A stretch of DNA of 64,000 bases from Blautia sp. SC05B48 (GTDB lineage: Bacteria > Bacillota > Clostridia > Lachnospirales > Lachnospiraceae), in the NCBI RefSeq assembly GCF_005848555.1, contig NZ_CP040518.1:2619501-2683500 (forward strand). The letters are read 5' to 3'. Every line of letters begins with the position of its first letter. Position 1 is the first letter of the stretch. Below, piece after piece: positions 5,397-47,615 of the stretch. The notes beneath the pieces were generated by a model. It ran no database searches. It saw nothing but the letters and a program-made list of their open reading frames with translations, and was not told the DNA's origin. The position numbers were made by a program, and so were the translations under genes.

Positions 5397-5445
5397 TGTG
5401 ATCAGCACTGTCAGATGCTTGATATAAGATAAAGAACGTGACAAA

Positions 5446-5480
5446 AGAGACTTCCCGTTATCGTGGGAGTCTCTTTTTTG
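5446..5480 (+). terminator. Rho-independent terminator after codY
   Basis: AGAGACTTCCC pairs with GGGAGTCTCT across an 8-base loop, with one bulge, followed by a T run. Confidence 0.8.
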
Positions 5481-5588
5481 TCTGTTTCATAAAATCAAAA
5501 TAAATAATGAAATTAAGAAAACAAGAGAAAAAAAGAGTATTAAAGAGATAAAATTAGAATAATATAGAAAAACTATATCTTAAAAGGG

Positions 5589-5617
5589 TTGCGAAAATAT
5601 GTGAAATTCACTAATAT
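5589..5617 (+). promoter_or_regulatory. groESL promoter
   Basis: TTGCGA (5589-5594) and TAATAT (5612-5617) are separated by 17 bp. The start point would fall just before or within the CIRCE operator. Confidence 0.75.
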
Positions 5618-5628
5618 AGCCATAGTGA

Positions 5629-5655
5629 TTAGCACTCGTAGAAAGTGAGTGCTAG
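5629..5655. promoter_or_regulatory. CIRCE operator (HrcA binding site)
   Basis: TTAGCACTC, nine bases, then GAGTGCTAG. This matches the CIRCE inverted repeat at 17 of 18 arm positions. It lies 12 bp after the -10, so HrcA would block initiation of groESL until heat or unfolded protein inactivates it. hrcA itself is not in the window. Confidence 0.95.
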
Positions 5656-5693
5656 CAGACGAAGATGGAACTTATAAAGGAGGAACATAGATC

Positions 5694-5978
5694 ATGAAGT
5701 TAGTACCTTTAGGCGACAGAGTAGTATTAAAACAGGTTGAAGCAGAAGAAACAACAGCATCCGGGATTGTGCTTCCGGGACAGGCACAGGAGAAACCACA
5801 GCAGGCAGAGGTTATTGCAGTTGGACCTGGCGGAGTTGTAAACGGGAAAGAAGTAAAAATGGAAGTAGAAGTCGGAAATACTGTTATCTATTCCAAATAT
5901 GCAGGAACAGAAGTAAAGATGGATGGAACTGATTATATTATTGTAAAGCAGGAAGATATCCTGGCAATCATTAAATAA
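5694..5978 (+). CDS. groES: Co-chaperonin GroES (Hsp10)
   Basis: This 94-residue protein starts [14 protein letters not shown] after an AAAGGAGG site. It has the mobile-loop segment [11 protein letters not shown] (about residues 19-29) that contacts GroEL, and ends in the typical [14 protein letters not shown]. Seven copies cap the GroEL ring. It is first gene of the CIRCE-controlled operon, with groEL 47 bp downstream. Confidence 0.98.
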
Positions 5979-31941: not shown

Positions 31942-32226
31942 ATGGCAAAGCAACATGACAAACAATTTAAACTTGATGCAGTCCAGTACTATCAGGATCA
32001 CAAAAATCTCGGAGTACGTGGATGTGCAGAAAATCTTGGCATCGGATACAGCACATTAACAAAATGGCTGAAAGACTTCCGGGAATCAGGTGATATTCCT
32101 GTTCGTGGTTCTGGTAATTATGCATCTGATGAGCAGAAGGAAATTGCCCGTCTCAGACGTGAATTACGTGATGCCCAAGATGCACTTGATGTGTTAAAAA
32201 AAGCAATCAACATTCTGAGAAAATGA
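31942..32226 (+). CDS. IS3-family transposase OrfA
   Basis: This 94-residue protein has a helix-turn-helix (GVRGCAENLGIGYSTLTKWLKDF) and a C-terminal leucine-zipper coiled coil (about residues 60-93). A run of seven A then G at 32196-32203 is a good -1 slippage site for an OrfAB fusion. It overlaps orfB by 4 bp. AAGGAGG precedes the ATG. Confidence 0.93.
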   Translation: MAKQHDKQFKLDAVQYYQDHKNLGVRGCAENLGIGYSTLTKWLKDFRESGDIPVRGSGNYASDEQKEIARLRRELRDAQDALDVLKKAINILRK

Positions 32227-33137
32227 CGGAAGCCATTTATCTTGAAGTGTCTGAGAAGACGGAAGCTGCCAAAAAGGCTGGACGCCGGGTTTCCGTCTCC
32301 AGAATGTTGAAATTTTTAGGTGTCTCTCGCTCAGGATATCTTGCATGGCTCCACCACGTACCTTCTGATACAGAAAAACGTCGTAAAGCTGTAAAAGCAA
32401 AAATACAGGATATTTATGATGATTCCAAGCAGAACTACGGTGCTCCGAAAATCACTGTAGAACTTCGAAAAACTGGTGAAGTCATTTCGGAAAGAACCGT
32501 TGGTACATATATGCGCCAAATGGGGATCCGTGCTCAGTGGAGCAAACCATGGACGATCACCACAAAAGATTCCGATTTCAGCACTGAATTACAAAATATC
32601 CTTGATGAGCAATTTAATCCTGATCGTCCGAATGCAGTCTGGTGTTCGGATATTACCTACATCTGGACAATAGATGGATTTGTCTATCTGACCAGTGTTA
32701 TGGATTTATTTTCCAGAAAAATCATAGCCTGGACGCTTTCAGAAACACTGGAAGTATCTTGCGTGATTGATACTATAAACAAAGCCCAAGTTCGCCGAAA
32801 TATCGATCAACCATTAATTATCCATTCGGATCGTGGCAGCCAATATGTTGCAAAGGAATATAAAAAAGCAACCGAAAATATGTAGCGCAGTTATTCGAAG
32901 AAAGCTTTTCCGTGGGATAATGCATGCATTGAATCCTTTCATTCTATTATCAAACGTGAATGGCTCAATCGCTTTAAAATTCGCGACTATAAGCAGACAT
33001 ACCAGTTGATTTTTGAATATCTGGAAGCTTTCTACAATACGAAACGAATTCATAGCCATTGCAACTATATGTCGCCAAACGAATTCGAACGAGTGTATGA
33101 AAGAACGCACACTGAGGCTGAGCTTCTGGCAGGTTAA
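32223..33137 (+). pseudogene. IS3-family transposase OrfB with in-frame amber codon
   Basis: The frame is continuous over 304 codons apart from TAG at 32883-32885 (codon 221). The HTH_21 domain is followed by the integrase core. DDE residues appear as WCSDITYI, SVMDLFSRKIIAW and, after the stop, NACIESFHSIIKREW. A product ending at the TAG lacks the catalytic Glu. The expected residue at the stop is probably Gln (CAG to TAG). Confidence 0.88.
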
Positions 33138-33405
33138 AATGGGGAGAAATTTCTCATTTTAACTCGTACTAAATCTTGACATAGGACCAGTCTTCATCCG
33201 GCAATGTTAGATGTGCAGGAGGAAATACTTAAAATGTTCCAAACAGCTGCGTATGAACAATATACAGAAATTTTAGAAAGGCAGAGACAGGAAGCCTTGT
33301 AGCAGGGGTAAAATCTTTTGGAAAATCCCATTATAAACAAAAGTGATGATAAATATATTGATACTGTGATACACATATTTTCTTTTCAATAGAGATGGTG
33401 GTTAT

Positions 33406-34026
33406 ATGTTAGAGAAGGAAAAACTAGACGGTTATTTTATAGCTGTAGATGGTCCTAATGGTGTTGGAAAGTCAACACTAATAGAGGCTATAAAAAATAA
33501 ATTGGAAGTATTGGGATATGCTGTATATATAACAAGGGAGCCCACGGATACTAAACTGGGAAATTTCTTAAGAGAGTTTGCAGAAAAACATTCAGGGATA
33601 AGTTTGGCGTGTTTGGTTGCGGCAGATAGATATGAGCATATGACCAATGAAATTATACCTGCATTAGAAGAGGGACAACTGGTTATTTCTGATAGGTATA
33701 TACTTTCATCACTAATATTGCAAGAAATGGATGGTGTTAGTGCTACTTTTGTGTTGACTGCAAATTCCGAAATAATAAAGCCGGATTTGCAATTGGCAGT
33801 GTTTGCAGATGAAAGGGTTTTGCAAAAAAGATTATCAGAACGAGATACATTGACTAGATTTGAAAAAGGGAATCAGTCAAAAAGTGAACTTGATTTTATG
33901 GAGAGAGGGATTATAGAATTAAGGAAATATAATATCGATGTTATGAATATTTATAACAATGACAATTTGGAAGAAAATGTAGAAAAAGTGGTTTCTTATG
34001 TAGTTAATAACTGGAGGAAGGTATGA
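33406..34026 (+). CDS. Thymidylate-kinase-like nucleoside monophosphate kinase
   Basis: This 206-residue P-loop kinase has VDGPNGVGKST (Lys22), TREPTDT (residues 43-49, TMK motif TREPGGT), AADRYEHMTNEIIPAL (72-87) and DRY (96-98). A LID-like segment RLSERDTLTRFE follows. It looks like dTMP kinase but is probably not the housekeeping copy: it is AT-rich and sits in an island. It overlaps the next gene by 4 bp (ATGA). Substrate could be dTMP or a modified deoxynucleotide. Only about 100 bp of AT-rich sequence with no clear promoter separates it from the IS-split pseudogene. Confidence 0.82.
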   Translation: MLEKEKLDGYFIAVDGPNGVGKSTLIEAIKNKLEVLGYAVYITREPTDTKLGNFLREFAEKHSGISLACLVAADRYEHMTNEIIPALEEGQLVISDRYILSSLILQEMDGVSATFVLTANSEIIKPDLQLAVFADERVLQKRLSERDTLTRFEKGNQSKSELDFMERGIIELRKYNIDVMNIYNNDNLEENVEKVVSYVVNNWRKV

Positions 34027-35357
34027 AAAAATTTATTCTATTTAACTCTCCTATATTTTGGGATACCACAAAAGAGAAAGAACAGTATTTATCACCACTG
34101 GGATTAGGATATATAGCAACATATTTAGAAAAAGCGGGAATAGATGTTACTATTGTAGATTGCGTAAAAGAAAGAAAATCTGTAACAGATATAGCGAATT
34201 TTATTAATAAAATGCATCCAGATTATATTGGAATAAACATTTTTACGCAAAATTACGAAATGGTGAAGTTTATTATTGAAAGTATTGAGATCCCATGTGA
34301 TTGTTTTATCGGAGGACAAGCCGTTAAGAGTATTTATTTTGATATACTTCAATGGGATACCCAAAATAGATTGAACATAATTATTGGTGAGGGAGAATTT
34401 ATAATACCTGCCCTTGTTTTAGGATTATGCAATCAGATTCCAGAGGAACAAAAGAATCAAAAATTTGTATATAGAGTTAATAAAGATTCGGAATATTTTC
34501 CAGAGGATATTTCAAATGTCTTTTTGGATAGGAGGTATTTGGGAAACGAGATAGTAGACAATCATTATGGTGAGAAAGAAATAGCAATCATTACATCGAG
34601 AGGATGTGCGTTTGATTGCGCGTTTTGCGGAGGGGCCAGGAGCTTAAATAAAGATGTTACAACCAGAATTCGCACAGAAGAAAGTGTTATAATGGAAATC
34701 AAAGAAATACTATCTACATATCCAGATATACAAAGCATTCGAATTTTAGATGATTTGTTTTTAAGAAATGGTAAAAGTATAGATATGGCAAATAATATTT
34801 TTTCAAAATTTCCACAGTTGAGTTGGCGAGGAATGGTTCATGTGTTGTCTCTAATTGGAAATATTGAAAAAGTGAAGGATCTCCACAATGGAAGGTGTAG
34901 GGAATTGTTTATTGGAATCGAATCTGGTTCAGAAAGAATGAGAAAGAAAATAAATAAGCTTGGTAGTTCAGATGATGTTATAACTGTTTCAAAAGAAATT
35001 CTGGAGAATGGAATTGACTTGAAGGGGTATTTTATTTATGGTTTTCCAGAAGAAACAAAAGAAGATTTTCAAAAAACATATGAATTGGCTTCTAAAATAA
35101 AAGAAATATCGCTTAAGACTCCTGGAACATTTAGAACCAGTGTGTTCCAATTTAGACCATATCATGGAACGCAGTTATATAATGAAATAGTAAAAAGCAC
35201 TGGAATTATTCATGGGTGTGAATTTAATAAATCAATAAGTCAATTTGAGGGAAGATCACAGTTCAATTTTGAATTTGGGAATTATAGTGCGGAGATAGAT
35301 GAAATGTTAAATGAATATATTATAAAAACACAGAAACTTACAGAGGAAGAACAATGA
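34023..35357 (+). CDS. B12-binding-type radical SAM enzyme of the TMK-UDG cassette
   Basis: This 444-residue protein has an N-terminal cobalamin-binding-like Rossmann domain (about residues 1-150; SPLGLGYIATYLEKAGIDVTIVD, then FIGGQAV and GEGEF). A radical SAM barrel follows with SRGCAFDCAFCGG (C195, C199, C202). The canonical DxHxxG cobalamin histidine is not evident, so B12 may bind base-off without it or not at all. It has ATGA overlaps with the kinase before and the glycosylase-like gene after. The reaction is unknown; methylation or rearrangement of a nucleotide is a reasonable guess from context. Confidence 0.85.
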   Translation: MKKFILFNSPIFWDTTKEKEQYLSPLGLGYIATYLEKAGIDVTIVDCVKERKSVTDIANFINKMHPDYIGINIFTQNYEMVKFIIESIEIPCDCFIGGQAVKSIYFDILQWDTQNRLNIIIGEGEFIIPALVLGLCNQIPEEQKNQKFVYRVNKDSEYFPEDISNVFLDRRYLGNEIVDNHYGEKEIAIITSRGCAFDCAFCGGARSLNKDVTTRIRTEESVIMEIKEILSTYPDIQSIRILDDLFLRNGKSIDMANNIFSKFPQLSWRGMVHVLSLIGNIEKVKDLHNGRCRELFIGIESGSERMRKKINKLGSSDDVITVSKEILENGIDLKGYFIYGFPEETKEDFQKTYELASKIKEISLKTPGTFRTSVFQFRPYHGTQLYNEIVKSTGIIHGCEFNKSISQFEGRSQFNFEFGNYSAEIDEMLNEYIIKTQKLTEEEQ

Positions 35358-35902
35358 TTGAGCAAATACGTAGATGTCAAAAGTGCGGTTTGTGTTTTAA
35401 CCAAAAACCGCTATTAGATACAGAAAAAGAATGTCAGGTTTTTTGGGTAGGTCTTTCGGCAAAAAAAATGGAATCTGATGAAGAAGTCCCGTTGTCTCCG
35501 GAAACCAATACAGGAATGTTGATTCAAAAGATAGAGGAATTGTGTGGAGAGGTAATCACATATAAAACAAATTTAGTAAAATGCCTTCCTTTAACAGAGG
35601 AACAAAAATTGCGTTATCCTAATAGAAAAGAAATCGATAGTTGTTTTGAACATTTGGTTGGTGAAATTCAGGCAATGTCTCCGAAAATAGTTTTTTTGTT
35701 GGGAGAAAAAGTTTATTCATCTGTTGGAAAACATTTAAAAATCAATTTTGAAAAATGGGATGAATTTGAATATCATTATAAAAAATATGAAGGGACTTAT
35801 TATGTACCAATTCACCATCCATCTTATATTTACGTTTATAAAAGAAAACGAATGGATGAATATATTGAGGGGGTTGAAAGGATAATAAATCAATTATTAT
35901 AG
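35354..35902 (+). CDS. Fe-S uracil-DNA-glycosylase-like protein with altered active site
   Basis: This 182-residue protein follows the family 4/5 UDG layout. Cluster cysteines are C8, C11 (CQKC), C77 in TNLVKCLP and C97 in EIDSCFEHL. MSPKIVFLLGEKV and the C-terminal HHPSYI (His155) match UDG motifs. Motif A, normally GEAPG, reads GLSAKK here, so the usual catalytic region is changed and uracil may not be the substrate. It is the last gene of the kinase-radical SAM-UDG cassette, coupled by a 4-bp overlap, and ends with TAG. Confidence 0.8.
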   Translation: MIEQIRRCQKCGLCFNQKPLLDTEKECQVFWVGLSAKKMESDEEVPLSPETNTGMLIQKIEELCGEVITYKTNLVKCLPLTEEQKLRYPNRKEIDSCFEHLVGEIQAMSPKIVFLLGEKVYSSVGKHLKINFEKWDEFEYHYKKYEGTYYVPIHHPSYIYVYKRKRMDEYIEGVERIINQLL

Positions 35903-36299
35903 TTGTGATGGATATAAAGCGTGATATGTTCCTGCTACAATCGCAGGTATAAAAATGACGGAGAACTAAGTCGGTTGGGGTCTGGGACATATGGCACACT
36001 TTTTGCCTCTCGTTTAAAAGCTGAATGATTCGGACTAAAACTTGTAGTGTAGGAAAGTTGATTAGACGGGGTAAATGCTATCCCCCTAATAGTGATACAA
36101 ACATTTTCGCAAAAGGTGACGGTTTCGCTATTTAGTATAAGAAGTAACTTTCACCGCATGTAGAGACTGTGTGCCTCTTGAGCAACCGAAAACCAGATAC
36201 CACGGTAAAACTCAGCGTGGATATGGATGATTACTATCGTATTAAAGATGGTAAAGAGCCTAAATAAAACCAAATAATACACTGAAACAAAGCAAGACA
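35903..36299. other. Gene-free relic region between the cassette and symE
   Basis: No intact gene is seen. Near 36172-36267 one frame reads KPDTTVKLSVDMDDYYRIKDGKEPK then stop, without a start or ribosome site. It looks like the 3' end of a decayed mobile-element gene. The rest shows no recognisable feature. Confidence 0.4.
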
Positions 36300-36389: not shown

Positions 36390-36710
36390 ATGGCAAAGAA
36401 AAATGTAAGAAATATGAAGGTTTGTGGACAGAGCGGTTATAAATATGAGACGGTTCCGACAATTACATTAAAAGGAAAATGGCTGGAAGAACTTGGATTT
36501 CATCTTGGAGATTATGTACAGGTGAAATGTGAAAATGGTCAGCTGATTATCACACCGGATGTGAATAAAGCACAGGAGCAGGAAGCAAAAACAGCATTTA
36601 TGGATGAGGAGATTAAGAAACTGAAAATCAGATACCAGAATGAAAAAGAAGAAATTACTGCAAAATATGTGGCGGAGCAGAGTGCCGGCTGTTATGGAAA
36701 GAAAGCATGA
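36390..36710 (+). CDS. SymE-like (AbrB-fold) toxin-type protein
   Basis: This 106-residue protein matches the SymE family: RNMKVCGQSGYKY, then PTITLKGKWLEELGFHLGDYVQVKCENGQLIITPD. A Glu/Lys-rich helical tail follows. E. coli SymE is an SOS-induced RNA-associated toxin held by an antisense RNA; in Lachnospiraceae elements homologues commonly sit beside parA. An antisense regulator was not identified. AAAGGAG precedes the ATG. It overlaps the longest parA frame by 4 bp. Confidence 0.78.
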   Translation: MAKKNVRNMKVCGQSGYKYETVPTITLKGKWLEELGFHLGDYVQVKCENGQLIITPDVNKAQEQEAKTAFMDEEIKKLKIRYQNEKEEITAKYVAEQSAGCYGKKA

Positions 36711-36724
36711 GAGGGGGAGAGAGT

Positions 36725-37510
36725 ATGGCAAGGATTATTATGTGCGGATCATTTAAAGGGGGAGTTGGCAAGACTGCCAGCTCCTGGAACCTGGCTTATT
36801 CACTGGCTGAGATGGGAAAAAGGGTTCTGGCTGTTGATTTTGACAGCCAGGCAAATCAGACTACCAGCTTCGGAATTGAAGATCCTGCGGCTGTACCGGT
36901 GACGATTGGACATCTGATGATGAATCGGCTGGAAGATGAGGAAGTGCCGGATCCGTCAGAATTTATTCAGAGCAGAAACGGTGTGGACTTTATTCCATCA
37001 TCCATGATGCTTTCGGCAGTGGACAGTAAGCTACGGATGGAAATGGGTTCAGAGAAGATGCTGGTCGGCATTCTGGAGCCACTGAGAGGGCTGTATGACT
37101 ATATTATTGTAGACACCTGTCCATCGCTCGGAACATTGACGATTAACGCACTGACGGCGGCTGATGAGGTGATTATTGCTGTCAATCCACAGCTTCTGGC
37201 AATGATGGGATTGCAGGATTTTATCCGGACAGTGAAGAAAGTCAGAAGCAGACTGAATGACCGCCTGCAGATTGCAGGGATTCTGCTGACTATGTGTGAT
37301 GCCAGAACAAATCTCTGCAAGGTAATCACAGAACAGCTGACGGATACTTTTGATGGACAGATCCGGATTTTTAAGAACATCATACCAAACACAGTAAAGG
37401 TGGGAGAATCAATTTATTACAGTGAGCCGCTTCTGGAGTATGCACCGGAGAATAAGGCTTGTAAAGCATACCGAAATCTGGCAGAGGAGGTGGTTGGGGA
37501 TGAAAGCTAA
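36725..37510 (+). CDS. parA: ParA-family partition ATPase
   Basis: This 261-residue protein has the deviant Walker A KGGVGKT (Lys11, Lys16), VDFDSQANQT as Walker A' and VDTCPSLGTLTINAL as Walker B. It drives DNA segregation or positioning with ParB. The ATG at 36725 follows a GGGGGAGAG site; the in-frame ATG at 36707 overlaps symE. It shows that the island contains plasmid/ICE backbone. The gene is intact, but its partner parB is not. Confidence 0.93.
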   Translation: MARIIMCGSFKGGVGKTASSWNLAYSLAEMGKRVLAVDFDSQANQTTSFGIEDPAAVPVTIGHLMMNRLEDEEVPDPSEFIQSRNGVDFIPSSMMLSAVDSKLRMEMGSEKMLVGILEPLRGLYDYIIVDTCPSLGTLTINALTAADEVIIAVNPQLLAMMGLQDFIRTVKKVRSRLNDRLQIAGILLTMCDARTNLCKVITEQLTDTFDGQIRIFKNIIPNTVKVGESIYYSEPLLEYAPENKACKAYRNLAEEVVGDES

Positions 37511-38498
37511 TGCACCAAAAAGAAAAGTATTTCAGGACGCACTGGATCTTCTTGCTGAGGATCCGGTGAAGGATACGCCAGTGGCTGTGAATGGGATTGT
37601 TTCTATTCCTGTTGAGGAAATCCATCCGTTTCATGATCATCCATTCCGGCTGTATGAGGGAGACCGCCTCGAAGATATGGTACAGAGCATCAGGGAGCAT
37701 GGTGTGCTGAATCCGGTGATCGTGAGGAAGGCTGCAAGGGGATATGAGATGCTTGCAGGGCATAACAGAACCAATGCGGCAAAGATAGCAGGATTGACGG
37801 AGGTGCCGGCGATAGTGAAGACGGATCTGTCTGATGAGGATGCTTATGTGTACGTGATCGAGACAAACCTGTTGCAGAGATCCTTTGCGGAACTGCTTCC
37901 ATCAGAGAAGGCGGCAGTGCTGGTGGCACGTTATGAAAAAATAAGCAGTCAGGGGAAACGGAATGATATCCGGTAGGAAATTGAGGCTTTGGAAAAAACC
38001 TGTGGACACGATGTCCACAAGTCCAGACAGAGAACCTGTGGACATGATGTCCACAAGTCACAGAAGAGCCGTGATGGACTTGGTGAGGAATATGGAATGA
38101 CTGGAAGGAATATTGCCAGATATATGAGACTGGACCGGCTGATTCCGGAATTTAAGGATGCAGTAGATAAGGGGACACTGGCAATGGTAGTTGCTGTTGA
38201 TTTGTCTTATCTGAATGTGAAGATGCAGAAGATGATCCAGCAGGTGGCAGAGGCTGAGGGAAAGAAACTGAAACCGAAGTAGGCAGTGGAACTGCGGAAG
38301 ATGGGAAAGGAGATTACGAAAGAGACGGTTGAGAGTGTTCTGGCGTGTAAAGAAAAGAAGAAGCCGCAGAGTGTGTCAGTGAAACTGCCGGTGGAATTGT
38401 ATGAGAAGTATTTTGCACAGATGGATGCCGGAGCAGTGCAGGAGATTATGGAGAAGGCATTGGAAGGGTATTTTGGAAAGGAGGCAACAGGTGTTTAG
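37500..38498 (+). pseudogene. parB: ParB-family partition protein with two in-frame amber codons
   Basis: One frame runs through 333 codons but contains TAG at 37974-37976 and 38280-38282. The ParB/Srx nuclease-like domain is clear: VEEIHPFHDHPFRLYEGD, then REHGVLNPVIVRKA, AGHNRTNAAKIAGL and ETNLLQRSF. After the first stop come a repeated TCGHDVHKS linker, the HTH part GMTGRNIARYMRLDRLIPE and a C-terminal helix. The start overlaps parA by 11 bp. Without suppression only the N-terminal 158 residues are made, lacking the HTH. Confidence 0.88.
37998..38069. repeat. Two 36-bp direct repeats, each holding a palindrome
   Basis: ACCTGTGGACAYGATGTCCACAAGTC-like units repeat at 36-bp spacing inside parB. 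Each contains TGTGGACA and TGTCCACA arms around three bases (38001-38019, 38037-38055). They encode the repeated TCGHDVHKS peptide. They could be an embedded partition or operator site. Confidence 0.6.
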
Positions 38499-38770: not shown

Positions 38771-38853
38771 TATAGTTTGGAAAGGTGTTATCAGAAATGG
38801 TAGCGTCTTTTTTATGTTTGGTGTATATCTTTGAAAACAATTTACTATACAAA

Positions 38854-38882
38854 TTGAAAATACATTTATGTCCTAGCATTAT
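38854..38882 (+). promoter_or_regulatory. Possible promoter of the NgoFVII-Z1 operon
   Basis: TTGAAA (38854-38859), 17 bp, CATTAT (38877-38882). The -10 is weak; it is the best candidate in the 167-bp gap. Confidence 0.35.
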
Positions 38883-38937
38883 CAGCTGTTTTGCAGTAAA
38901 ATTGAATAATACATTAAGAGTTTATAGGGGGTGCAGG

Positions 38938-40089
38938 ATGGAATTATTATATTCAAATATTCTGCCATTAGGAACAGAGGATGATCAGGAAACAATAATG
39001 GACTGCTTTAATGAACAGATGAAAATAGCTGACAGAGTCGAAATCGCAGTTGGATATACTTCTAATGCATCACTTGCCGAATTAGACAGGCTTGTGGATA
39101 AATGTGGTATTTCTAAAGTTTGCTTAAATATAGGGATGTATTTTATTGAAGGTATGCCAGAAGGAGCATATCATACAGCAATAAAAATCAATGAAAAGTG
39201 GCAGAAATCAGATATTGGTGAGATTCGAGTTATAAAGGCATTCAAGTATCATGGAAAACTGTTTTGCTTTTATAAAGACGGAAAACCATTTTCGGCAATT
39301 ATCGGATCTGCAAATCTTGGAGTTATCAAATTGGAAGCAAGCAATAGAAGGCAGTACGAGATGTCTGCTATTACAACAACTGAACAGGAAGTGGCGGAGA
39401 TTGCAGAACACATTGAGAAGTTGAAAATGCAAAACTGCTCAGAGAATATTGCGCTTGTAAAGAATATGCCGCTTGTGAGAGAAGTTAATACTGCATTAAA
39501 TGGAATAGAACTGGTTACATCTGTACCAAAATCAAATGTGGAGTTTTATGAAAGATGTAAAGCGTATGTTTCATTCTTTCTGAAACTGAAAGTTCCTAAG
39601 AAAGATGAGCGTCATTTGGATGATGGAAAGCATTATACAAAGTCAAATATTAATGTCTGTTATGCAGCACCGCGAAGTAAGAGAAAGGCAAGAGACTGGT
39701 ATGAAACTCAGCTGACAGTTGGCGCAGATGTGTACCGTATGGAAGGTTATCCAGAGAAGAATAAACCATTTTTTGTAGTGACAGATGATGGATATTGGTT
39801 CAAAGCACATACAACAAGTGATAATAATAAACAGTTTAGTGCAGTTGGCGATGAATTGATAATGGGAAGATGGCTGAAAGGAAGGCTGGCAGCGGCAGGT
39901 ATAGTAAAGCCAGTAAATAATACGGCAGTTGATACGGATCGCCTGGGAATGATTACAGAAGAAATGCTTCAGGAATATGGATGTGACAGGCTGGAATTTA
40001 AGAAAACAGGTCAGACTGCATTGGATGAAGATGGAAATCCGCTGGATGTCTGGATGCTTTCATTTACAGCTGGATCCGAAGATGAATAG
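38938..40089 (+). CDS. NgoFVII-family PLD-type restriction endonuclease
   Basis: This 383-residue protein has an N-terminal phospholipase-D-like nuclease domain with the half-site YHGKLF (His105, Lys107) and GSAN (123-126). A C-terminal B3-like recognition domain of the R.NgoFVII type follows (about residues 225-375). It is predicted to cut DNA at a short site protected by the nearby C5 methyltransferase. The ATG at 38938 follows GGGGGTGCAGG; the longer frame from 38785 has no ribosome site. It is first of three coupled genes with the Z1 helicase next. Confidence 0.85.
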   Translation: MELLYSNILPLGTEDDQETIMDCFNEQMKIADRVEIAVGYTSNASLAELDRLVDKCGISKVCLNIGMYFIEGMPEGAYHTAIKINEKWQKSDIGEIRVIKAFKYHGKLFCFYKDGKPFSAIIGSANLGVIKLEASNRRQYEMSAITTTEQEVAEIAEHIEKLKMQNCSENIALVKNMPLVREVNTALNGIELVTSVPKSNVEFYERCKAYVSFFLKLKVPKKDERHLDDGKHYTKSNINVCYAAPRSKRKARDWYETQLTVGADVYRMEGYPEKNKPFFVVTDDGYWFKAHTTSDNNKQFSAVGDELIMGRWLKGRLAAAGIVKPVNNTAVDTDRLGMITEEMLQEYGCDRLEFKKTGQTALDEDGNPLDVWMLSFTAGSEDE

Positions 40090-40100
40090 GAGAAAAGTAT

Positions 40101-41951
40101 ATGCAGTATTTGAAAACCTACCTTAAAAAAATAACTGATAGAGGAAATACAAAACTTGCAGAATCTATTGAAAAAACAGCAAATGATGTTGGAAATAAGC
40201 ATATAAAAACATTTTCTTTTTCCAGTCATGAAATTGGTCTGTTGCTGGGAAATGTTCAATCCGGTAAAACTGGACAGATGTTTGGAATTATATGCAAGGC
40301 GGCAGATTTAGGATTTCCGGTATTTGTTTTACTGACCACAGACAATGTTGTTCTTCAGCAGCAGACTCTGGATCGAGTAAAAACAGATCTTGATGGATTC
40401 TGTATTTGCGGAGAAAATGATGCGGCACTTTTCAATGAAAACAGTCTGATGGATCCTGTAATTATTGTATTAAAGAAGAATGTGCGGATGCTGAAATTGT
40501 GGGCGAATATTCTTAATTCAACAGGTTTTATGAAAGGAAATCCGCTGTTCATCATTGATGATGAGGCTGATGCGGCTTCATTAAATACGTTGGTCAACAG
40601 AAACTGGCAGTCTTCAATTAATAAATATCTGGACAGCATAAAAAATGGTGCATCAAGCAGTTTATATCTGCAGGTGACAGGAACGCCGCAGGCAATCTTT
40701 TTACAGACGCTTGCATCTGGATGGCATCCATATTTTACATATTATTTTCAGCCGGGAGATGCTTATCTTGGAGGTGATTTTTTCTTCCCTTCAAGTGGAA
40801 AGCCGGACTGTGTATCATTTTTGGAAAAGCTTAAAATGCCTATGAGAGAAGTGGTTGTAAGACATCTGTTGGTGTCTGCTCAGATTCTTTTGTCAGGCGG
40901 TAAAGTATCTAACTGCTTGTTTCATCCGAGCGTAAGGGTAGCTGTACATAAGAAGATTGAAGGAGATATACAGAAGGAACTAAAATGGTGTATTGAAAAT
41001 CTTGATGCAGAATTAAAGAATGAATTAAGCAGACAGTACGCAGATATGAATCCGTCAAGATCTCAAAAGTGTTCTTTGGAAGACTTGTATGCTAAAGTTA
41101 AAGAAATATTAACTGGAAATCAGTTCAGAGTTCTTGTTATGAATGGAAAAAATGATGTGGAGAGTTCAGATTATGAAGCTGGCTGCAATTTCGTTGTTGG
41201 CGGAAATACATTGGGCCGTGGCGTAACATTTCCGGGATTACAGACTATTTACTATACGAGAACGAGTAAAAAACCGCAGGCAGATACAATGTGGCAGCAC
41301 AGCAGGATGTTTGGATATGATCGTGATCCGGGCATGATGAAGGTTTACATTGATGAAAATCTGTATAAATTGTTTGCAGATATAAACGCTACCAATAATT
41401 CTATAATTGCACAGGTTGAAAAGGGCATTGAGGATGTGAAGATATATTATCCAGAGGGGCTTAATCCAACACGTAAAAATGTATTGGATAATGACCACGT
41501 GGAAATTATTTCAGGAGGAACAAATTATTATCCGTTTAATCCTGATAATGATTCTATTGAAGATATATCAAAACTTCTGGAGGCATTTTCTGAAACAGAG
41601 CCGTATTATCAGGTGAGTCTTCGTCTAATGAAAGAAATATTGGCACATATTATTCCGAGTCCTGATTTTAAACTCCAGGCATTTTGCTCTGTTATAGATA
41701 CTATTTTGTCAGAGCATCCGACAGGACAGGGAATTTTGATTATACGCCGGGAAAGAAATGTTGCTCAGGGTACAGGTGCATTGTTGTCACCTAATGATTG
41801 GCAGCTGGGTGGAACTTTTACAGATAAAGTGGTTCTGACAATGTATCAGATAACTGGAACAAAAGGATGGGGCGGAAAGAAACTCTGGGTTCCGAATATA
41901 AAATTGCCGAGTAATACAATGTATTATGATGTCATTGAGGAGGATGCTTGA
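40101..41951 (+). CDS. Z1-domain superfamily II ATPase/helicase
   Basis: This 616-residue ATPase has Walker A GNVQSGKT (residues 50-57), Walker B IIDDEADAAS (from Asp153), motif III TGTP and a C-terminal helicase half with VVGGNTLGRGVTFPGL and DTMWQHSRMFGYDRD. These define the Z1 family, known from restriction-type operons with Dcm, Vsr and MutL/MORC-like ATPases. It probably translocates DNA or assists cleavage by the flanking PLD nuclease. It overlaps the next gene by 4 bp. Confidence 0.88.
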   Translation: MQYLKTYLKKITDRGNTKLAESIEKTANDVGNKHIKTFSFSSHEIGLLLGNVQSGKTGQMFGIICKAADLGFPVFVLLTTDNVVLQQQTLDRVKTDLDGFCICGENDAALFNENSLMDPVIIVLKKNVRMLKLWANILNSTGFMKGNPLFIIDDEADAASLNTLVNRNWQSSINKYLDSIKNGASSSLYLQVTGTPQAIFLQTLASGWHPYFTYYFQPGDAYLGGDFFFPSSGKPDCVSFLEKLKMPMREVVVRHLLVSAQILLSGGKVSNCLFHPSVRVAVHKKIEGDIQKELKWCIENLDAELKNELSRQYADMNPSRSQKCSLEDLYAKVKEILTGNQFRVLVMNGKNDVESSDYEAGCNFVVGGNTLGRGVTFPGLQTIYYTRTSKKPQADTMWQHSRMFGYDRDPGMMKVYIDENLYKLFADINATNNSIIAQVEKGIEDVKIYYPEGLNPTRKNVLDNDHVEIISGGTNYYPFNPDNDSIEDISKLLEAFSETEPYYQVSLRLMKEILAHIIPSPDFKLQAFCSVIDTILSEHPTGQGILIIRRERNVAQGTGALLSPNDWQLGGTFTDKVVLTMYQITGTKGWGGKKLWVPNIKLPSNTMYYDVIEEDA

Positions 41952-42916
41952 TGAGCGGTGATTTAAAATATCCGGATGGAATTGCAGGAAAAATTCTGTT
42001 TGATCCAATAAAAGAGGGCGTAGACAGGCTGTGTATTTTAACAGCAGAAGCTACACCGAGTATGGCTTCATGGCTGCTAAAAAGCTATGAGGAACTTGGA
42101 ATTTCCGATGTGACAGTTAAATTGATTATCGGTGATACTTTGAATAAGGGAATAGATAAAGGATCTCATGAAAGTTTTAAGGAACTGCATGGAACCAGAT
42201 ATTCAGATACATGGGGGAATTTTTCATGTAGTTATTTGACATATCCGCCAGCATTTGAAAATAGCAGCTATTATATTTGGTTGAATGGAGACACACCGGT
42301 AAGGGCGTATAAGATTTCAGGACCTTTTACGCAGCAATATCTTTTGCATGATGATAAAGAGAATGTAAATGAGACGGATGCTGTTCGGGCGTATGGAATA
42401 TATACAGATGCCGAGAAAAGGACGATGTATTGTACATATGCAGAAGTAGATGAATATGTTGTTTTGCGGTCAGCAGAAGATACGACAAGGGAACAAATGG
42501 AAACAGATGCTGAGAATTGTGTGCATTTGTCACTCTTGGCACGAGGCGGAGAAACTGGAACTAGATCTGGATTAAACTGGGGACAGAGGAATAAAAGAAA
42601 CAGAAATGAGGCTTATATTCCGTTGCCATCGCATATTGCGAAATCTGGATTTTTCCCGTTGGATAAACAGCATTTTTTAGTAGTTACAGATGATCATCAC
42701 ACGTTACAGCTGAGAGTAGAACAGCAGAATGATAAAGCAATTACTACTCCTGCCAGTAATGCGTTGTTGGGAGAATATTTTAGAAACCGGCTTGGATTAT
42801 GCAATGGAGCATATGTCAAAAAAGATGATCTTTTGGCGTATGGAAGAACAGATGTGACTTTTTACAAGATAGATGAAGAACAGTACTATATGGACTTTTC
42901 TGTTGAAGAAAAGTGA
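41948..42916 (+). CDS. PLD/B3-like protein paralogous to the NgoFVII-type nuclease, apparently catalytically dead
   Basis: The C-terminal half of this 322-residue protein (about residues 195-315) aligns by eye with the NgoFVII-like gene's recognition domain. Shared cues are FLVVTDDH against FFVVTDDG, a similar LGEYFRNRL/MGRWLKGRL helix, and a final FYKIDEE strand. The N-terminal half has a PLD-like order, but where the nuclease has HGK it reads NSS, and the GSAN segment becomes SGPF. It may be a specificity or structural subunit. It overlaps the Z1 gene by 4 bp. Confidence 0.65.
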   Translation: MMSGDLKYPDGIAGKILFDPIKEGVDRLCILTAEATPSMASWLLKSYEELGISDVTVKLIIGDTLNKGIDKGSHESFKELHGTRYSDTWGNFSCSYLTYPPAFENSSYYIWLNGDTPVRAYKISGPFTQQYLLHDDKENVNETDAVRAYGIYTDAEKRTMYCTYAEVDEYVVLRSAEDTTREQMETDAENCVHLSLLARGGETGTRSGLNWGQRNKRNRNEAYIPLPSHIAKSGFFPLDKQHFLVVTDDHHTLQLRVEQQNDKAITTPASNALLGEYFRNRLGLCNGAYVKKDDLLAYGRTDVTFYKIDEEQYYMDFSVEEK

Positions 42917-42924
42917 TGAATAAT

Positions 42925-42958
42925 AAAAAGCCGGAAGCTGCTAAACTTCCGACTTTTT
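42925..42958. terminator. Bidirectional terminator between the nuclease operon and the methyltransferase
   Basis: AAAAAGCCGGAAG pairs with CTTCCGACTTTTT (one mismatch) around an 8-base loop, with T runs on both strands. Confidence 0.85.
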
Positions 42959-42959
42959 G

Positions 42960-44012
42960 TTATTCATTGATATTAGCTTCGACAGATGGATAATCAATAT
43001 CTGCGAAACTTTTAAGAATCGCTTCAAAGATTATCTGAGCTCCACGACAAGGAACTGCCATTCCAATCTGTTTACGTACACTTTCCTTGGTTCCCTGAAA
43101 TTCATAAGTATCTGGGAATGTCTGGAGTCTGGCACGTTCGCGGTTGGTTAATGCTCTTGGTTCTTCCCAGTGGTAAATGTGGGTTCCGCCGCCGCCGCTT
43201 CCGGTTACTGTATAAGATGGCTTTTCTGGATCCAGTCTTTTGTAAATCTGGCTGATTCGGGCACCTTTAATGTTAAGCTGTAATTCAGGCGGAAGATCCG
43301 CTGTAAATGCATTTTCACCAGGACGAATATGTCTGAGACGTTCAACTACGGTCGCTGACTGTCGCGTAGCTTCATTGTTTGGTGCATCTGCAGGGATTGG
43401 CGGGTTTTGAATAGCATTTCTGCATGTGTTGTCTATCTCACTATATGGTTCAGGAGAAGGGACGTGATAGGTTACATTAATGTCATTGCGGATGCCGACA
43501 ATAATAATTCTATGACGTGCCTGAGGAATACCATATTCTTCAAATTTATAAAGATGCGGAGTAATCGTGTATCCGGCATCACGGAGTTCTGTTAAGATTT
43601 TGGTGAAAGCCGTGCCGTCGTTAGCATTACGCAAACCACCAACATTTTCCGCAAGAAACCATTGTGGTTTAAATCTTTTCAGAGCTGTTACTCCGTAAGA
43701 ATATAATGGTCCATATACACCGTCCATTCCTTTCTGTTCTCCTACAACGCTGTAATCATTACAGGGGAAGCCGAAGGCCAGGGCGTCGATTGGTGCCAGC
43801 TTGCTCATATCGAATTTACGGATATCTTCATGGTAAACTGTTTGTGGTGCATCAGGGCAGATATTGTGCCGGTATGTTTCGCAAGTATTTGCATCATAAT
43901 CATTGGCCCATTGATGTACAATTGAATAATCGGAATTGCCTATATCAGCGTGGGTAGCTCCCCATGCAATTCCGCCTGGACCACAAAATAATTCTCCTAA
44001 TCTGTATTGCAT
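42960..44012 (-). CDS. DNA cytosine-5 methyltransferase (Dcm family)
   Basis: This 350-residue enzyme carries motif I ELFCGPGGIAWG, motif IV GFPCNDYS (Cys84), motif VI AENVGG (Glu122), motif VIII QARHRII and motif X RKQIGMAVPCRGAQ. The target-recognition region between VIII and IX-X is short. Motif IV is PCN rather than PCQ. It is the modification half of the NgoFVII-type system and lies convergent to the nuclease operon. The site is unknown; R.NgoFVII itself cuts GCSGC. It is in an operon with the XRE controller 11 bp upstream. Confidence 0.94.
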   Translation of the reverse strand: MQYRLGELFCGPGGIAWGATHADIGNSDYSIVHQWANDYDANTCETYRHNICPDAPQTVYHEDIRKFDMSKLAPIDALAFGFPCNDYSVVGEQKGMDGVYGPLYSYGVTALKRFKPQWFLAENVGGLRNANDGTAFTKILTELRDAGYTITPHLYKFEEYGIPQARHRIIIVGIRNDINVTYHVPSPEPYSEIDNTCRNAIQNPPIPADAPNNEATRQSATVVERLRHIRPGENAFTADLPPELQLNIKGARISQIYKRLDPEKPSYTVTGSGGGGTHIYHWEEPRALTNRERARLQTFPDTYEFQGTKESVRKQIGMAVPCRGAQIIFEAILKSFADIDYPSVEANINE

Positions 44013-44023
44013 AAGTAGCCTCC

Positions 44024-44362
44024 TTAATCGTTCAGACAGGTCTTTTCCTGTGTTTTGATAAAGTTAACGAACAGTTGAACTGTATTGAGTTGTTGCTCAT
44101 TCAGATCTTCCAGTCCGCTGATCAATAATGGTGGATGAATATCATTTTCTGATATGTACCCAGCACTAAGCAAAACCTCAAATGGGTGAAAATTTAATGC
44201 CTTTGCAATTTTACAAAGATGTTCCCAGCTTGGTTTCTTGCGGGTACCGTTTTCAATTTTTAATATTTCAGTGTCGCTGATTCCAGTTGCGGAACTTAAT
44301 TTTTTTAAAGATAATCCGGAAGATTCTCTTTTGGATTTTATAAATTGGCCTAAATTGGGCAT
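44024..44362 (-). CDS. XRE-family HTH regulator (probable controller protein)
   Basis: This 112-residue protein has an N-terminal HTH: LGQFIKSKRESSGLSLKKLSSATGISDTEILKIENGTRKKPSW. A short helical C-terminal part follows. It sits directly upstream of the methyltransferase on the same strand, the classic place for a restriction-modification controller. GAGGTGAG precedes the ATG. It probably regulates its own promoter and so the order in which methylase and nuclease appear. Confidence 0.9.
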   Translation of the reverse strand: MPNLGQFIKSKRESSGLSLKKLSSATGISDTEILKIENGTRKKPSWEHLCKIAKALNFHPFEVLLSAGYISENDIHPPLLISGLEDLNEQQLNTVQLFVNFIKTQEKTCLND

Positions 44363-44380
44363 ACTCTCACCTCTTGTGAA

Positions 44381-44409
44381 AGTATATCACGCACGCTGCC
44401 TAATGTCAA
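44381..44409 (-). promoter_or_regulatory. Promoter of the controller-methyltransferase operon
   Basis: On the minus strand TTGACA, 17 bp, TATACT: near perfect. The start point would be about 12 bp before the ATG, so the leader is almost only the ribosome site. A TCAC-N5-GTGA repeat overlaps the start and ribosome site and could be the controller's operator. Confidence 0.75.
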
Positions 44410-44568
44410 TGAAAAAATTAACAAAATGCTGCCAAAAAGCAGCGAAAATATGAACTGTAAGAACTTATGCGATTAAAAAATAACTGGCTGTAAAAATGTG
44501 ATATAGTGTATAGTGAGTGTAAGAAATAAATCAAAATTGGAAAAGCACGTTAAGATAAGGAAGATAAT

Positions 44569-45351
44569 ATGGCAAATCGGAATGGAGTAAAATGGAGCCG
44601 GGAAGAAACGATTTTAGCATATGAATTGTATTGTCGAACACCATTTAGTAAAATTAGCCAGTCAAATCCAGAAATAAAAAAGCTTGCAGAACTTTTAGGT
44701 AGAACGCCTGGATCTGTAGGATTAAAGATGCATAATTTAGCGCATTATGATCCGGAATTAAAAAAAAGAAATGTTACAGCAATGGCACATGGCAGTAAAC
44801 TGGATGGAGAAATATTTAGCGAATTTTGCAATGATTGGACAGAACTATCATATCAGGCTCAGGAAATTCGAGCAAGAATGCAAAATGTAGAAGTTAGGGA
44901 AATTATTGATGTGGGAGATATTGATGATATTCCACCGGGAGAATATAAAGAGCGAGTAATGAAGAAGCGTGTTGGACAATATTTTTTCAGAATGGCTGTT
45001 TTAAGCTCATACGGAAATAAATGCTGTATAACAGGAATGTCAAAATCATCTTTGTTAATTGCGAGTCATATTAAACCTTGGAATGTTTGTGATGAAAAAA
45101 CTGAAAGAACAAATCCATGTAATGGATTGTGTTTAAATTCATTACATGATAAGGCCTTTGATAGAGGTTTAATAACGTTAGACAGTAAATTAAGGCTGAT
45201 AGTTTCTAAAGAAATGAAAAATGCTGAAATGGATAAGCAAACAAGAGATTGGTTCTATGGGTATGAAGGTACACAAATCAATCTTCCAGATAAATTTTTG
45301 CCCGGTAAATCATTTCTTGAATATCACAATGATGTAGTCTTTTTGGGGTAA
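44569..45351 (+). CDS. HNH endonuclease
   Basis: The C-terminal part of this 260-residue protein is an HNH_2-type nuclease: CCITGMSKSSLLIASHIKPWNVCDE, then NPCNGLCLNSLHDKAFDRGLITLD. The N-terminal part is a DNA-binding-like helical region (REETILAYELYCRTPFSKI, LGRTPGSVGLKMHNLAHYD) common in restriction HNH proteins. It is divergent from the controller gene and 5 bp before vsr. It may be an additional nuclease of the system or a modification-dependent one. Confidence 0.85.
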   Translation: MANRNGVKWSREETILAYELYCRTPFSKISQSNPEIKKLAELLGRTPGSVGLKMHNLAHYDPELKKRNVTAMAHGSKLDGEIFSEFCNDWTELSYQAQEIRARMQNVEVREIIDVGDIDDIPPGEYKERVMKKRVGQYFFRMAVLSSYGNKCCITGMSKSSLLIASHIKPWNVCDEKTERTNPCNGLCLNSLHDKAFDRGLITLDSKLRLIVSKEMKNAEMDKQTRDWFYGYEGTQINLPDKFLPGKSFLEYHNDVVFLG

Positions 45352-45356
45352 TTGAT

Positions 45357-45813
45357 ATGGATAATTTGACACCGGATCAAAGAAAGAAGAATATGCAACA
45401 CATTCGTTCAGATAATACGAAGATAGAAACAATACTACGGAAAGCACTGTGGGATAAAGGGTACAGATATAGAAAGAACTATAAAGAGCTTCCTGGAAAA
45501 CCGGATATTGTTCTTACAAAGTATAAAATTGCTATTTTTTGTGATGGTGAATTTTTTCATGGGAAAGACTGGGAAGTTTTAAAACCAAGACTTGAAAAAG
45601 GGAATAATAGTGAATACTGGTTAGCGAAGATTTCCAGAAATAGAGAGAGATGATGAGATTAATAAGAAATTGCTGTTTATGGGTTGGACGGTGATTAGAT
45701 TCTGGGGAAAGGATATTAAGAAGAATACAGATGAGTGTGTACGTGTTGTTGAAGAGACGATTTTTGATTTGAAAATCAGAAATGATGAATCTGAATATAT
45801 GAAAGAAGAATGA
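45357..45813 (+). pseudogene. vsr: Very short patch repair endonuclease Vsr, frameshifted in a GA repeat
   Basis: The N-terminal 98 residues are clear Vsr: MDNLTPDQRKKNMQHIRSDNTKIE, GYRYRKNYKELPGKPDIVL and IFCDGEFFHGKDW. After RNRER the frame stops at TGA 45651. One more GA in the GAGAGAGA run (45643-45650) restores DDEINKKLLFMGWTVIRFWGKDI to a stop at 45813. Vsr repairs T:G mismatches from deaminated 5-methylcytosine. The loss may be phase variation, mutation or sequence error. Confidence 0.88.
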
Positions 45814-45819
45814 GGCGTG

Positions 45820-45848
45820 TTGCTGTAAGTTGGCGTTTGTATTATAAT
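45820..45848 (+). promoter_or_regulatory. Promoter of the AIPR-family gene
   Basis: TTGCTG (45820-45825), 17 bp, TATAAT (45843-45848), giving a leader of about 65 bases. Confidence 0.65.
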
Positions 45849-45920
45849 TGCTATAACTGAAAAGGACTTATGTGGATAAAATAATGTGATTCTTAGTGAA
45901 CATACGAGAAAGGATAATTT

Positions 45921-47615
45921 ATGGATAGAATTGTACAGAGCTATATGGATTCTTTTTTAAAATCGCAGGATATAGTTGAAAAAAATCAAAGCAAACAATT
46001 TGAAATGTTTTCTTCATATTGCGCTATAGAACAAATGTATTCAGAAAATTTTAACCCGATAGATGTTGTAATAGGAGATGGTGATGATTGTGGAATAGAT
46101 GCAATTGCAATATTAGTGAATGGATTGCTGATTACATCAAAAGAGGAAATAGATGATTTGCTTGAGATTAATAAGAAATTATCCGAAATAAATTTTGTTT
46201 TTGTACAGGCAAAAACATCATCAAATTTTGACTATGGTGATATGGGAACTTTTGGAACTGGAGTAAAAGATTTCTTTTCAGACAGTCCACAAATGCGAAG
46301 AAATGAGGCTATAATTGAAAAAAGTAAAATCGTTGAATATATTTTTTCAAAGGCTACATATATAAAGAAGAAACCTGTATGTTATTTGTATTATATAACC
46401 ACAGGAAAATGGGTTAATGATCAGAATTGCGTGGGGAGAATGGAGCTTGTCAAAAGTGACTTATTAGACTTGAATATTTTTAGCAATGTAGTATATATTC
46501 CGGTTGGTGCTGATTTATTGCAGAAATATTATAGAAACACAATAGATGTGATTGAAACAGAAATAGAATTTAGTAATAAAATTCTTTTGCCAGAAATACC
46601 TGGAGTTACTCAGTCGTATTTAGGATATATTGATAGTGAATCTTATTTGAAACTTATTACAGGAGAAAATGGAGAAATACGTAAAAGTGTGTTTTATGAC
46701 AATGTAAGGGATTTTCAGGGAGATAATCCCGTAAATCATGAAATGTCTGAATCGTTAAGAACAGATTCACAAAAATTCGTTCTTCTTAATAATGGTGTGA
46801 CTGTAATATGTAAGGAATTGTCGAATATAGGAAATAAATTTACATTGACAGATTATCAGATTGTTAATGGATGTCAAACTAGTCATGTTATATTTAATAA
46901 TAAAGATGATATAATAAATGGATTGCAGTTACCGATAAAATTAATAGAAACAGAAGATGATGAAACTGTAAACAGAATAATAAAGGCAACAAACCGTCAA
47001 ACAGAGGTATCTGATGAACAGTTAATAGCATTAAACGAATTTCATAGAAAATTGGAAGCATTTTATGGAACATTTACGGGAGCCAATCGCCTCTATTACG
47101 AGAGAAGGTCCAAGCAATATAATTATGGAACAGATATTGAAAAAGTGCGTATTGTTTCTATAAGTACTCAAATTAAAGCGGTTGCATCTATGTTTTACGA
47201 TAAACCACATTTAGCTAGTAGATATTATGGTCGTTTGTTAAAAGCAATAGATGGAATTTTTAATGAGGGACATCAGCTATTGCCATATTATACTTGTGCA
47301 TTTACATTATATCGTTTGGAATTTCTATTTAGAAATAAAAGCATTCCTGCGCAATATAGAAAATTTAAATATTTTATATTAATGCTGATTAAATACGATT
47401 TAGCTGATGATAAAATTCCTGAAATGAATGCAAATAAGATGAATAAGTTTTGCGAGAAAATTTTAGTTATAGCATCGGATAATTCGAAATTAACAGACGA
47501 AGTAAATAAATTAACGCAATTAATTGATAAGCATGTAACAGATATCACTAGTGCAGAATCTACTAAAACAGCTACTTTGGTAGAAAATTTGAAAACGGAA
47601 TTTGTAATTAAATGA
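45921..47615 (+). CDS. AIPR-family (abortive phage resistance) protein
   Basis: The N-terminal part of this 564-residue protein has a PD-(D/E)xK-like nuclease pattern: DDCGIDAIAILVNG, then FVFVQAKTSSNFDYGDMG. The family core is FVLLNNGVTVICKEL, YQIVNGCQTSHVIF and later ATNRQTEVSDEQLIALNEFH. AIPR proteins are linked to phage abortive infection and often lie beside Z1/Dcm/Vsr genes. It has its own promoter and terminator, so it may act as a stand-alone layer. The sequence is strongly AT-rich. Confidence 0.87.
   Translation: MDRIVQSYMDSFLKSQDIVEKNQSKQFEMFSSYCAIEQMYSENFNPIDVVIGDGDDCGIDAIAILVNGLLITSKEEIDDLLEINKKLSEINFVFVQAKTSSNFDYGDMGTFGTGVKDFFSDSPQMRRNEAIIEKSKIVEYIFSKATYIKKKPVCYLYYITTGKWVNDQNCVGRMELVKSDLLDLNIFSNVVYIPVGADLLQKYYRNTIDVIETEIEFSNKILLPEIPGVTQSYLGYIDSESYLKLITGENGEIRKSVFYDNVRDFQGDNPVNHEMSESLRTDSQKFVLLNNGVTVICKELSNIGNKFTLTDYQIVNGCQTSHVIFNNKDDIINGLQLPIKLIETEDDETVNRIIKATNRQTEVSDEQLIALNEFHRKLEAFYGTFTGANRLYYERRSKQYNYGTDIEKVRIVSISTQIKAVASMFYDKPHLASRYYGRLLKAIDGIFNEGHQLLPYYTCAFTLYRLEFLFRNKSIPAQYRKFKYFILMLIKYDLADDKIPEMNANKMNKFCEKILVIASDNSKLTDEVNKLTQLIDKHVTDITSAESTKTATLVENLKTEFVIK

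Follow-up and report, generated by a model that had tools for sequence, protein, structure and literature searches.

What do a nucleotide kinase, a radical enzyme, and a DNA glycosylase-like protein do together when their genes overlap in a single cassette? This question is raised by three genes of Blautia sp. SC05B48, whose genome is a single contig of 3.73 Mb. The genes lie in a stretch of 64,000 nucleotides, the whole of which was analysed and is hereafter called the window, and they encode a protein of the thymidylate kinase family (T), a cobalamin-binding radical S-adenosylmethionine (SAM) enzyme (R), and a protein with the fold of uracil-DNA glycosylases (UDGs; G).

33406..34026, + strand: T, thymidylate kinase family protein, 206 amino acids (PF02223 at 8.1e-34; TIGR00041; residue table)
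34023..35357, + strand: R, cobalamin-binding radical SAM enzyme, 444 amino acids (B12-binding domain at 4.6e-11, Radical_SAM at 6.6e-17)
35354..35902, + strand: G, UDG-fold protein, 182 amino acids (PF03167 at 1.8e-13)

The interpretation that we favor, with a probability of roughly 0.4 judged from sequence comparisons, is that the cassette is a mobile poison-and-antidote module against phages, in which R and T would make a harmful thymidylate analogue and the glycosylase would be the antidote. It builds on the gene composition, the co-occurrence of the genes, the replacement of one glycosylase fold by another, substitutions in the binding pockets, recent transfer, the defence and phage context, and a glycosylase that persists as an orphan. 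From these observations we infer the substrate, the product, its incorporation, and the protection from phages.

A linked cassette in Clostridia

An original prediction, made from the letters of the window, had described the trio and its ATGA overlaps; the family assignments are firm, and both joints, T to R and R to G, contain the overlap. T scored 117.4 bits against PF02223 (Pfam gathering cut-off, 27) and 111 bits against TIGR00041, the dTMP (thymidine monophosphate) kinase equivalog (cut-off, 83.25). R has the N-terminal B12-binding domain and the CxxxCxxC motif (C195, C199, and C202) of cobalamin-dependent radical SAM enzymes, and these cysteines were invariant in the nine sequences of alignment A1. 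R scored below the cut-off of every one of the 25 models listed among its 35 NCBIfam matches, and its best profile matches were 9ccb, AprD4, OxsB, CysS, and TokK, which have varied chemistry; the match to OxsB was distant (2.9e-7). G matched the family-4 UDG 4zbx both by profile (1.3e-13) and by Foldseek (3.5e-8).

The original prediction had asked whether the three families co-occur in other genomes. Homologues of the cassette genes recurred together, and the R-G pair did so well beyond this genome, so that an outcome in which they never co-occur was not seen. R and G each matched the same three of 391 genomes of the class, this genome included, and were adjacent in all three. Among 392 genomes of the order, R matched four, this one included, all of them with full trios, and G matched the same four and one more. 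A search of 299 genomes of the phylum at a stricter threshold found R in this genome only. G stood beside R in all six distinct clostridial genomes reached by searches that started with R (G000, G124, G296, G713, G770, and G800), and eight loci came from a scan of public genomes started with G. Thirteen clostridial-type R loci were read (the window, L002, L003, L004, L006, L007, L008, L017, L018, L142, L143, L144, and L146); G was directly downstream of R in every one, and T was directly upstream of R in 10. The distances of T, R, and G correlated at 0.959-0.964 across nine trios, and for each pair none of 5000 permutations gave a value as high.

G was also found without R at four loci (L005, L009, L145, and L013). 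At L005, an intact G gene lies beside what is left of the C-terminal portion of R; no remnant of T or R was found at L009, L145, or L013, and the G gene of L013 is cut short by a stop. The ratio of nonsynonymous to synonymous substitution of the orphan G was 0.064-0.094 at L005 and 0.124 at L009, with a high synonymous divergence. This asymmetry is the pattern of an antidote because, among the loci analysed, R always has a glycosylase unless the contig ends, while G occurs without R. A stub upstream of G at L005 was considered as Gabija and rejected (E 0.94).

Base-binding pockets of T and G

In the pocket of T, the thymine-stacking position is occupied by V71, and L105 replaces the Tyr of canonical enzymes. 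In the alignment, the stacking residue was Val in all 16 cassette kinases versus Tyr in five of five canonical clostridial kinases, and the Tyr preceding the conserved Gln, which we take to be the residue that screens the 2' position, was Leu, Val, or Met in the 16 cassette kinases. The cassette kinases thus lack the aromatic residue that lies on thymine in a canonical dTMP pocket, whereas the thymine-edge Arg and Gln (R75 and Q106) were retained. T resembles the thymidylate kinases of Staphylococcus aureus (4dwj) and Mycobacterium tuberculosis (1g3u) in its P-loop, DRY motif, and thymine-edge Arg and Gln; it differs from them at the two positions above, where they have a stacking Phe or Tyr and the Tyr before Gln, and in carrying [EQ]P[ST] for EPGG (16 of 16). 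In the M. tuberculosis enzyme, the pyrimidine makes a stacking contact with Phe70 and bonds with Arg74 and Asn100 (PMC3619541). Nine other PF02223 kinases were fetched (L125-L133), of which the residue table took the five canonical ones and left out the more divergent L130-L133; by eye, an aromatic residue likewise occupies the stacking position of L130-L132.

A separate observation concerns the housekeeping enzyme. No PF02223 match at E 0.001 was found in 11 of 12 genomes of the same genus, several of these relatives being incomplete, and the cassette T is the sole PF02223 protein above the cut-off in this genome (G000). The dTMP kinase of the genus seems to be divergent or to go unrecognised.

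G was expected to keep its cluster cysteines and to lack the GEAPG motif, and this held throughout the family: C8, C11, C77, and C97, together with N73 and HPS, were retained in 15 of 15 G proteins, all of which have GLSA for GEAPG and Leu (L47) for the stacking Phe. The roles of the corresponding F55 and N82 used in this reading were taken from PMC11078745. G therefore shares with the family-4 UDG of S. tokodaii (4zbx) the fold, the four cluster cysteines, the uracil-edge Asn, and the HP(S) motif. Unlike that enzyme, it lacks GEAPG and the stacking Phe, and it scored far below the curated NCBIfam cut-offs for family-4 UDGs (48.1 bits vs. 250, and 42.4 vs. 125.3). Judged by alignment, T and G have both lost a former aromatic contact to the base, which would predict a changed base or a changed geometry on a thymine-like edge. 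G also matched, by profile and by fold, PDB 9qhs_A, a family-A DNA polymerase of a phage (phiLo) with a modified template, a match that points to possible UDG-like domains on the polymerases of phages.

A counterpart in Actinomycetota and phages

In Streptomyces phage SF3, annotated genes for a B12 radical SAM protein, a thymidylate kinase, and a NUDIX protein overlap; they are preceded by a hypothetical gene of 279 amino acids, and an integrase gene is near. Strong R matches (E 1e-44 or better) were found on at least 12 Streptomyces or Kitasatospora plasmids among the 30 records listed of 65. A homologue of the SF3 hypothetical protein, here called U, stood beside R in all 12 strong records. 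T and the fourth gene were examined in seven of these 12; T was present in all seven, and the fourth gene encoded a NUDIX protein in six and was annotated as MazG-like in the remaining one, ITFR-21, where Pfam assigned PRA-PH barely above the cut-off. Actinobacterial and clostridial R were 26-30% identical over most of their length. Near copies among the loci read were L007 and L008, L026 and L027 (identical R), L023 and L024 (95%), and several NBC plasmids (82-83% in U).

The profile of U matched AlkA (2jhj, 5.5e-7), and its structure model (mean predicted local distance difference test score, pLDDT, 84.0) matched AlkA and OGG1 by fold, with 2jhn as the best match (2.5e-7). The Asp that follows the hairpin has a known role in HhH-GPD proteins; IGPWTA and D216 were invariant in seven of seven U proteins, so that U has the fold, the hairpin, and the Asp after it. 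None of these seven, one of them the divergent L151, passed the Pfam cut-off for HhH-GPD. U is, going by the profile and the model, a DNA glycosylase of the HhH-GPD fold. Since G has the UDG fold, the core of radical SAM enzyme and kinase is accompanied by glycosylases whose two folds are unrelated.

The arrangement recurs in viruses. A profile scan of viral contigs, in which the best 80 of 129 R relatives were kept, gave six strong relatives; T and NUDIX accompanied all six, and U accompanied five, the sixth ending at a contig edge. T, U, NUDIX, or G was beside none of the 74 weaker viral relatives in the stretch examined and beside neither of two weaker plasmid relatives. Single-sequence scans of the viral contigs gave no match, whereas the profile scans did. 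A scan with U found five of the strong loci again and two more, which had another radical SAM type or were cut off. A plasmid of S. nigrescens (L134) and the viral L151 were rejected as members, their radical SAM protein having no match to R, and L153 was cut off. At L134:1287-4268 and L151:5998-8999, a U relative of the HhH-GPD type lies beside this different radical SAM protein and a gene annotated, in L134, as an aminoglycoside phosphotransferase; the two loci are perhaps a parallel set of radical SAM enzyme, kinase, and glycosylase.

Mobility, defence context, and proposed function

The setting of the cassette was as predicted, namely AT-rich, next to an insertion sequence (IS), and in a defence island. 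Its GC content was 31.8%, compared with 45.0% in the first 31 kb of the window; it lies between a broken IS3-type element upstream and a series of defence genes downstream. By blastn, positions 33190-36056 were the only part common to the window and locus L002 of R. inulinivorans DSM 16841 (99.3% identity over 2867 bases).

33190..36056, no strand: mobile unit, the only stretch common with L002, both flanks different (blastn, junctions)
33190..33302, + strand: C-terminal remnant of a gene that is intact in L002 (blastn against L002, junctions)
31942..33137 (right end approximate), + strand: IS3-type element, broken (open reading frame list and sequence; IS family by eye)

The remnant is cut on its left side beside the IS3-type element, and its whole counterpart in L002 encodes 361 amino acids (4864-5949). 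The element contains orfA (31942-32226) and orfB (32223-32885), and transposase-like coding continues past the orfB stop. Because the cassette is 99.3% identical in the two genomes while their groEL genes are only 79% identical, and because the flanks differ, the cassette has been recently transferred between species.

The original prediction also asked whether the copies sit in islands or prophages, and several adjoin defence or phage genes. At ten loci, chosen proteins were scanned for defence functions. Recognised defence genes occurred at six (the window, L003, L004, L007, L142, and L145); L002 had a weak fragment of a defence gene only, and none was recognised among the proteins scanned at L006, L017, and L143. 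At L007, and by sequence at L008, R-G follows KwaB and KwaA of Kiwa, with KwaA overlapping R; in L007:5161-8549 these genes run into R-G as one operon from which the T gene is absent. The gajB gene of Gabija lies 54 bases before T at L004, type I restriction genes follow the trio at L003, and at L142 a PDC-S25 candidate precedes T and a KwaA gene lies downstream. The trio of L146 adjoins phage head genes, for terminase and portal. At L143:10750-12378, a DUF6119 protein (8.5e-143) with no PADLOC match at 1e-5 is encoded directly upstream of the trio.

Under the poison-and-antidote interpretation, R would remodel a thymidylate-like nucleotide into an analogue, which T, as a dedicated kinase judging from its family and pocket, would phosphorylate towards the triphosphate. 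The analogue would be incorporated when DNA is synthesised in a burst, as during phage replication, and would block or corrupt that DNA. A dedicated glycosylase, G in Clostridia and the HhH-GPD protein in Actinomycetota, would remove the analogue from host DNA, and the extra actinobacterial gene (NUDIX, or once PRA-PH/MazG-like) may destroy the free triphosphate. The first hypothesis of the original prediction, a modified thymidylate that is made and phosphorylated with a matching glycosylase, is the best fit, given the co-occurrence of R and G, the unrelated-fold glycosylase and NUDIX in Actinomycetota, and the lost aromatic residues.

Ranked next, although unlikely, is a scheme in which an unnatural thymidine is supplied by R and T to phage DNA, where the glycosylase acts as the effector and turns it into abasic sites, as Brig1 does on modified T4 DNA. 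Glycosylases of two unrelated folds beside the same R-T core and a G directly after R at 13 of 13 clostridial loci agree with it, as does the precedent of Brig1 and Brig3, glycosylases that are effectors of defence (PMC11078745; PMC13160076). However, host DNA would be struck too unless the module were induced, G stands without R at four loci, and a NUDIX partner would be expected to lower the marked deoxynucleoside triphosphate.

It is improbable that the cassette defends against phages that carry modified thymine or uracil, with the glycosylase cutting the phage's base and R, T, and NUDIX processing modified nucleotides from the phage pool. Brig1 and Brig3, which like G belong to the UDG superfamily and lie near defence genes, are glycosylases that cut phage-modified cytosines (PMC11078745; PMC13160076); G keeps the uracil-edge Asn (N73) and has lost the stacking Phe, and the loci have a defence and phage context. 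Unlike the cassette, Brig1 and Brig3 act on bases made by the phage, and neither "radical SAM" nor the kinase terms searched for appear in the main texts of the two papers (PMC11078745; PMC13160076). The removal of phage-modified bases had been the second hypothesis of the original prediction; it fits less well than the first because a dedicated kinase would push modified nucleotides towards DNA, promoting incorporation and not removal.

Slightly less probable again is the biosynthesis of a nucleoside small molecule, an antibiotic or a signal, on mobile DNA, with the glycosylase and NUDIX providing self-resistance. OxsB and AlsB, cobalamin radical SAM enzymes that act on dAMP or dATP (deoxyadenosine mono- and triphosphate), make nucleoside natural products; they share the cobalamin and radical SAM architecture of R and are a precedent for nucleotide substrates, but R is partnered by a kinase and a glycosylase, not by the phosphohydrolase OxsA or the second radical SAM enzyme AlsA (PMC13331322). 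At the Streptomyces plasmid locus L119, the neighbours include ABC transporters, another radical SAM protein, and a methyltransferase gene. On the other hand, no exporter or tailoring gene recurred at the loci whose neighbours were read, and several clostridial copies adjoin defence genes. The least probable reading, a nucleotide-pool and DNA repair cassette for a common thymine lesion, unconnected with conflict and with a dTMP kinase of the ordinary kind, agrees with a T above the equivalog cut-off and with partners that resemble sanitation or repair enzymes, but the cassette is rare and recently mobile, not core, its pocket substitutions are uniform, and we know of no repair route that needs a cobalamin radical SAM enzyme.

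Several points weigh against the poison-and-antidote interpretation. The glycosylase could equally be the effector, and a product altered in its sugar would not obviously need a base-removing enzyme. The nucleotide substrate of R is deduced from its partners, because its best profile matches have varied chemistry, and T may simply phosphorylate dTMP, since it passes the NCBI equivalog cut-off for an ordinary dTMP kinase. Few genomes carry the module (1 of 299 in the phylum). No T accompanies R at L007, L008, and L018 (3 of 13), and seven of the 13 clostridial R loci (L002, L003, L004, L006, L007, L008, and L146) were found only via G, which favors the pairing. The orphan G genes are few (four), one being truncated (L013) and one lying in a 76%-complete assembly (L145). 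By eye, the neighbours of L018 are ribosomal-protein and other ordinary genes and those of L144 resemble a pilus locus, so that neither has a visible defence or phage setting. The G model has a pLDDT of 79.6, but residues 1-12, which bear C8 and C11, are below 50.

In line with the statement that no named system with this trio is known, a literature search by gene set found no description. A search for the PADLOC model name PDC-M51 found no paper, and among the matches listed for cobalamin radical SAM enzymes and phage defence, no such system appeared by title. PDC-M51 itself (A, radical SAM; B, kinase) was rejected by controls as the identity of the cassette: R and T matched weakly (1.4e-14 and 9.3e-14), and three of four ordinary PF02223 kinases tested scored as well as T. 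Another B12-binding radical SAM protein of the window, encoded at 21170-22855 and not part of the cassette, matched PDC-M51A at 6.1e-34, better than R, and the PDC-M51A model therefore looks non-specific. Prokaryotic viperin with a nucleotide kinase resembles the proposed module in the idea that a radical SAM enzyme and a nucleotide kinase would make a chain-stopping nucleotide; viperin is not known to have a cobalamin domain or a DNA glycosylase. No viperin model, which both libraries presumably contain, was among the 25 models listed of the 35 NCBIfam matches of R, nor was it the single PADLOC match.

The novelty lies not in the enzyme families, which are known, but in their combination, in the pocket changes, which are uniform, and in the use by a second phylum of a glycosylase of unrelated fold. 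A little more tentatively than the poison-and-antidote interpretation itself, the cassette may represent an undescribed class of anti-phage system, with an unnatural deoxynucleotide made from thymidylate by cobalamin radical chemistry, its own kinase, a matched glycosylase (UDG or HhH-GPD), and, in Actinomycetota, a nucleoside triphosphate pyrophosphohydrolase. If so, the immune weapon of these cells would be a new analogue of a DNA base or sugar, with a private glycosylase as the antidote; the module, present on islands, plasmids, and phages, would correspond to a viperin that is directed at DNA and has genomic self-repair built in. Resistance to it could be gained by carrying the glycosylase alone. 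Such a system would be a source of new nucleotide chemistry against viruses and of glycosylases whose novel specificities could be used in editing or detecting DNA; it would also allow one to test directly how phage DNA synthesis is poisoned in a cell whose own is spared.

Beyond the cassette, the window contains ParA-like and ParB-like genes (36707-37976, named by eye) and an island at 38785-47612 with a type II restriction endonuclease, a helicase, a methyltransferase, an HNH protein, and AbiU.

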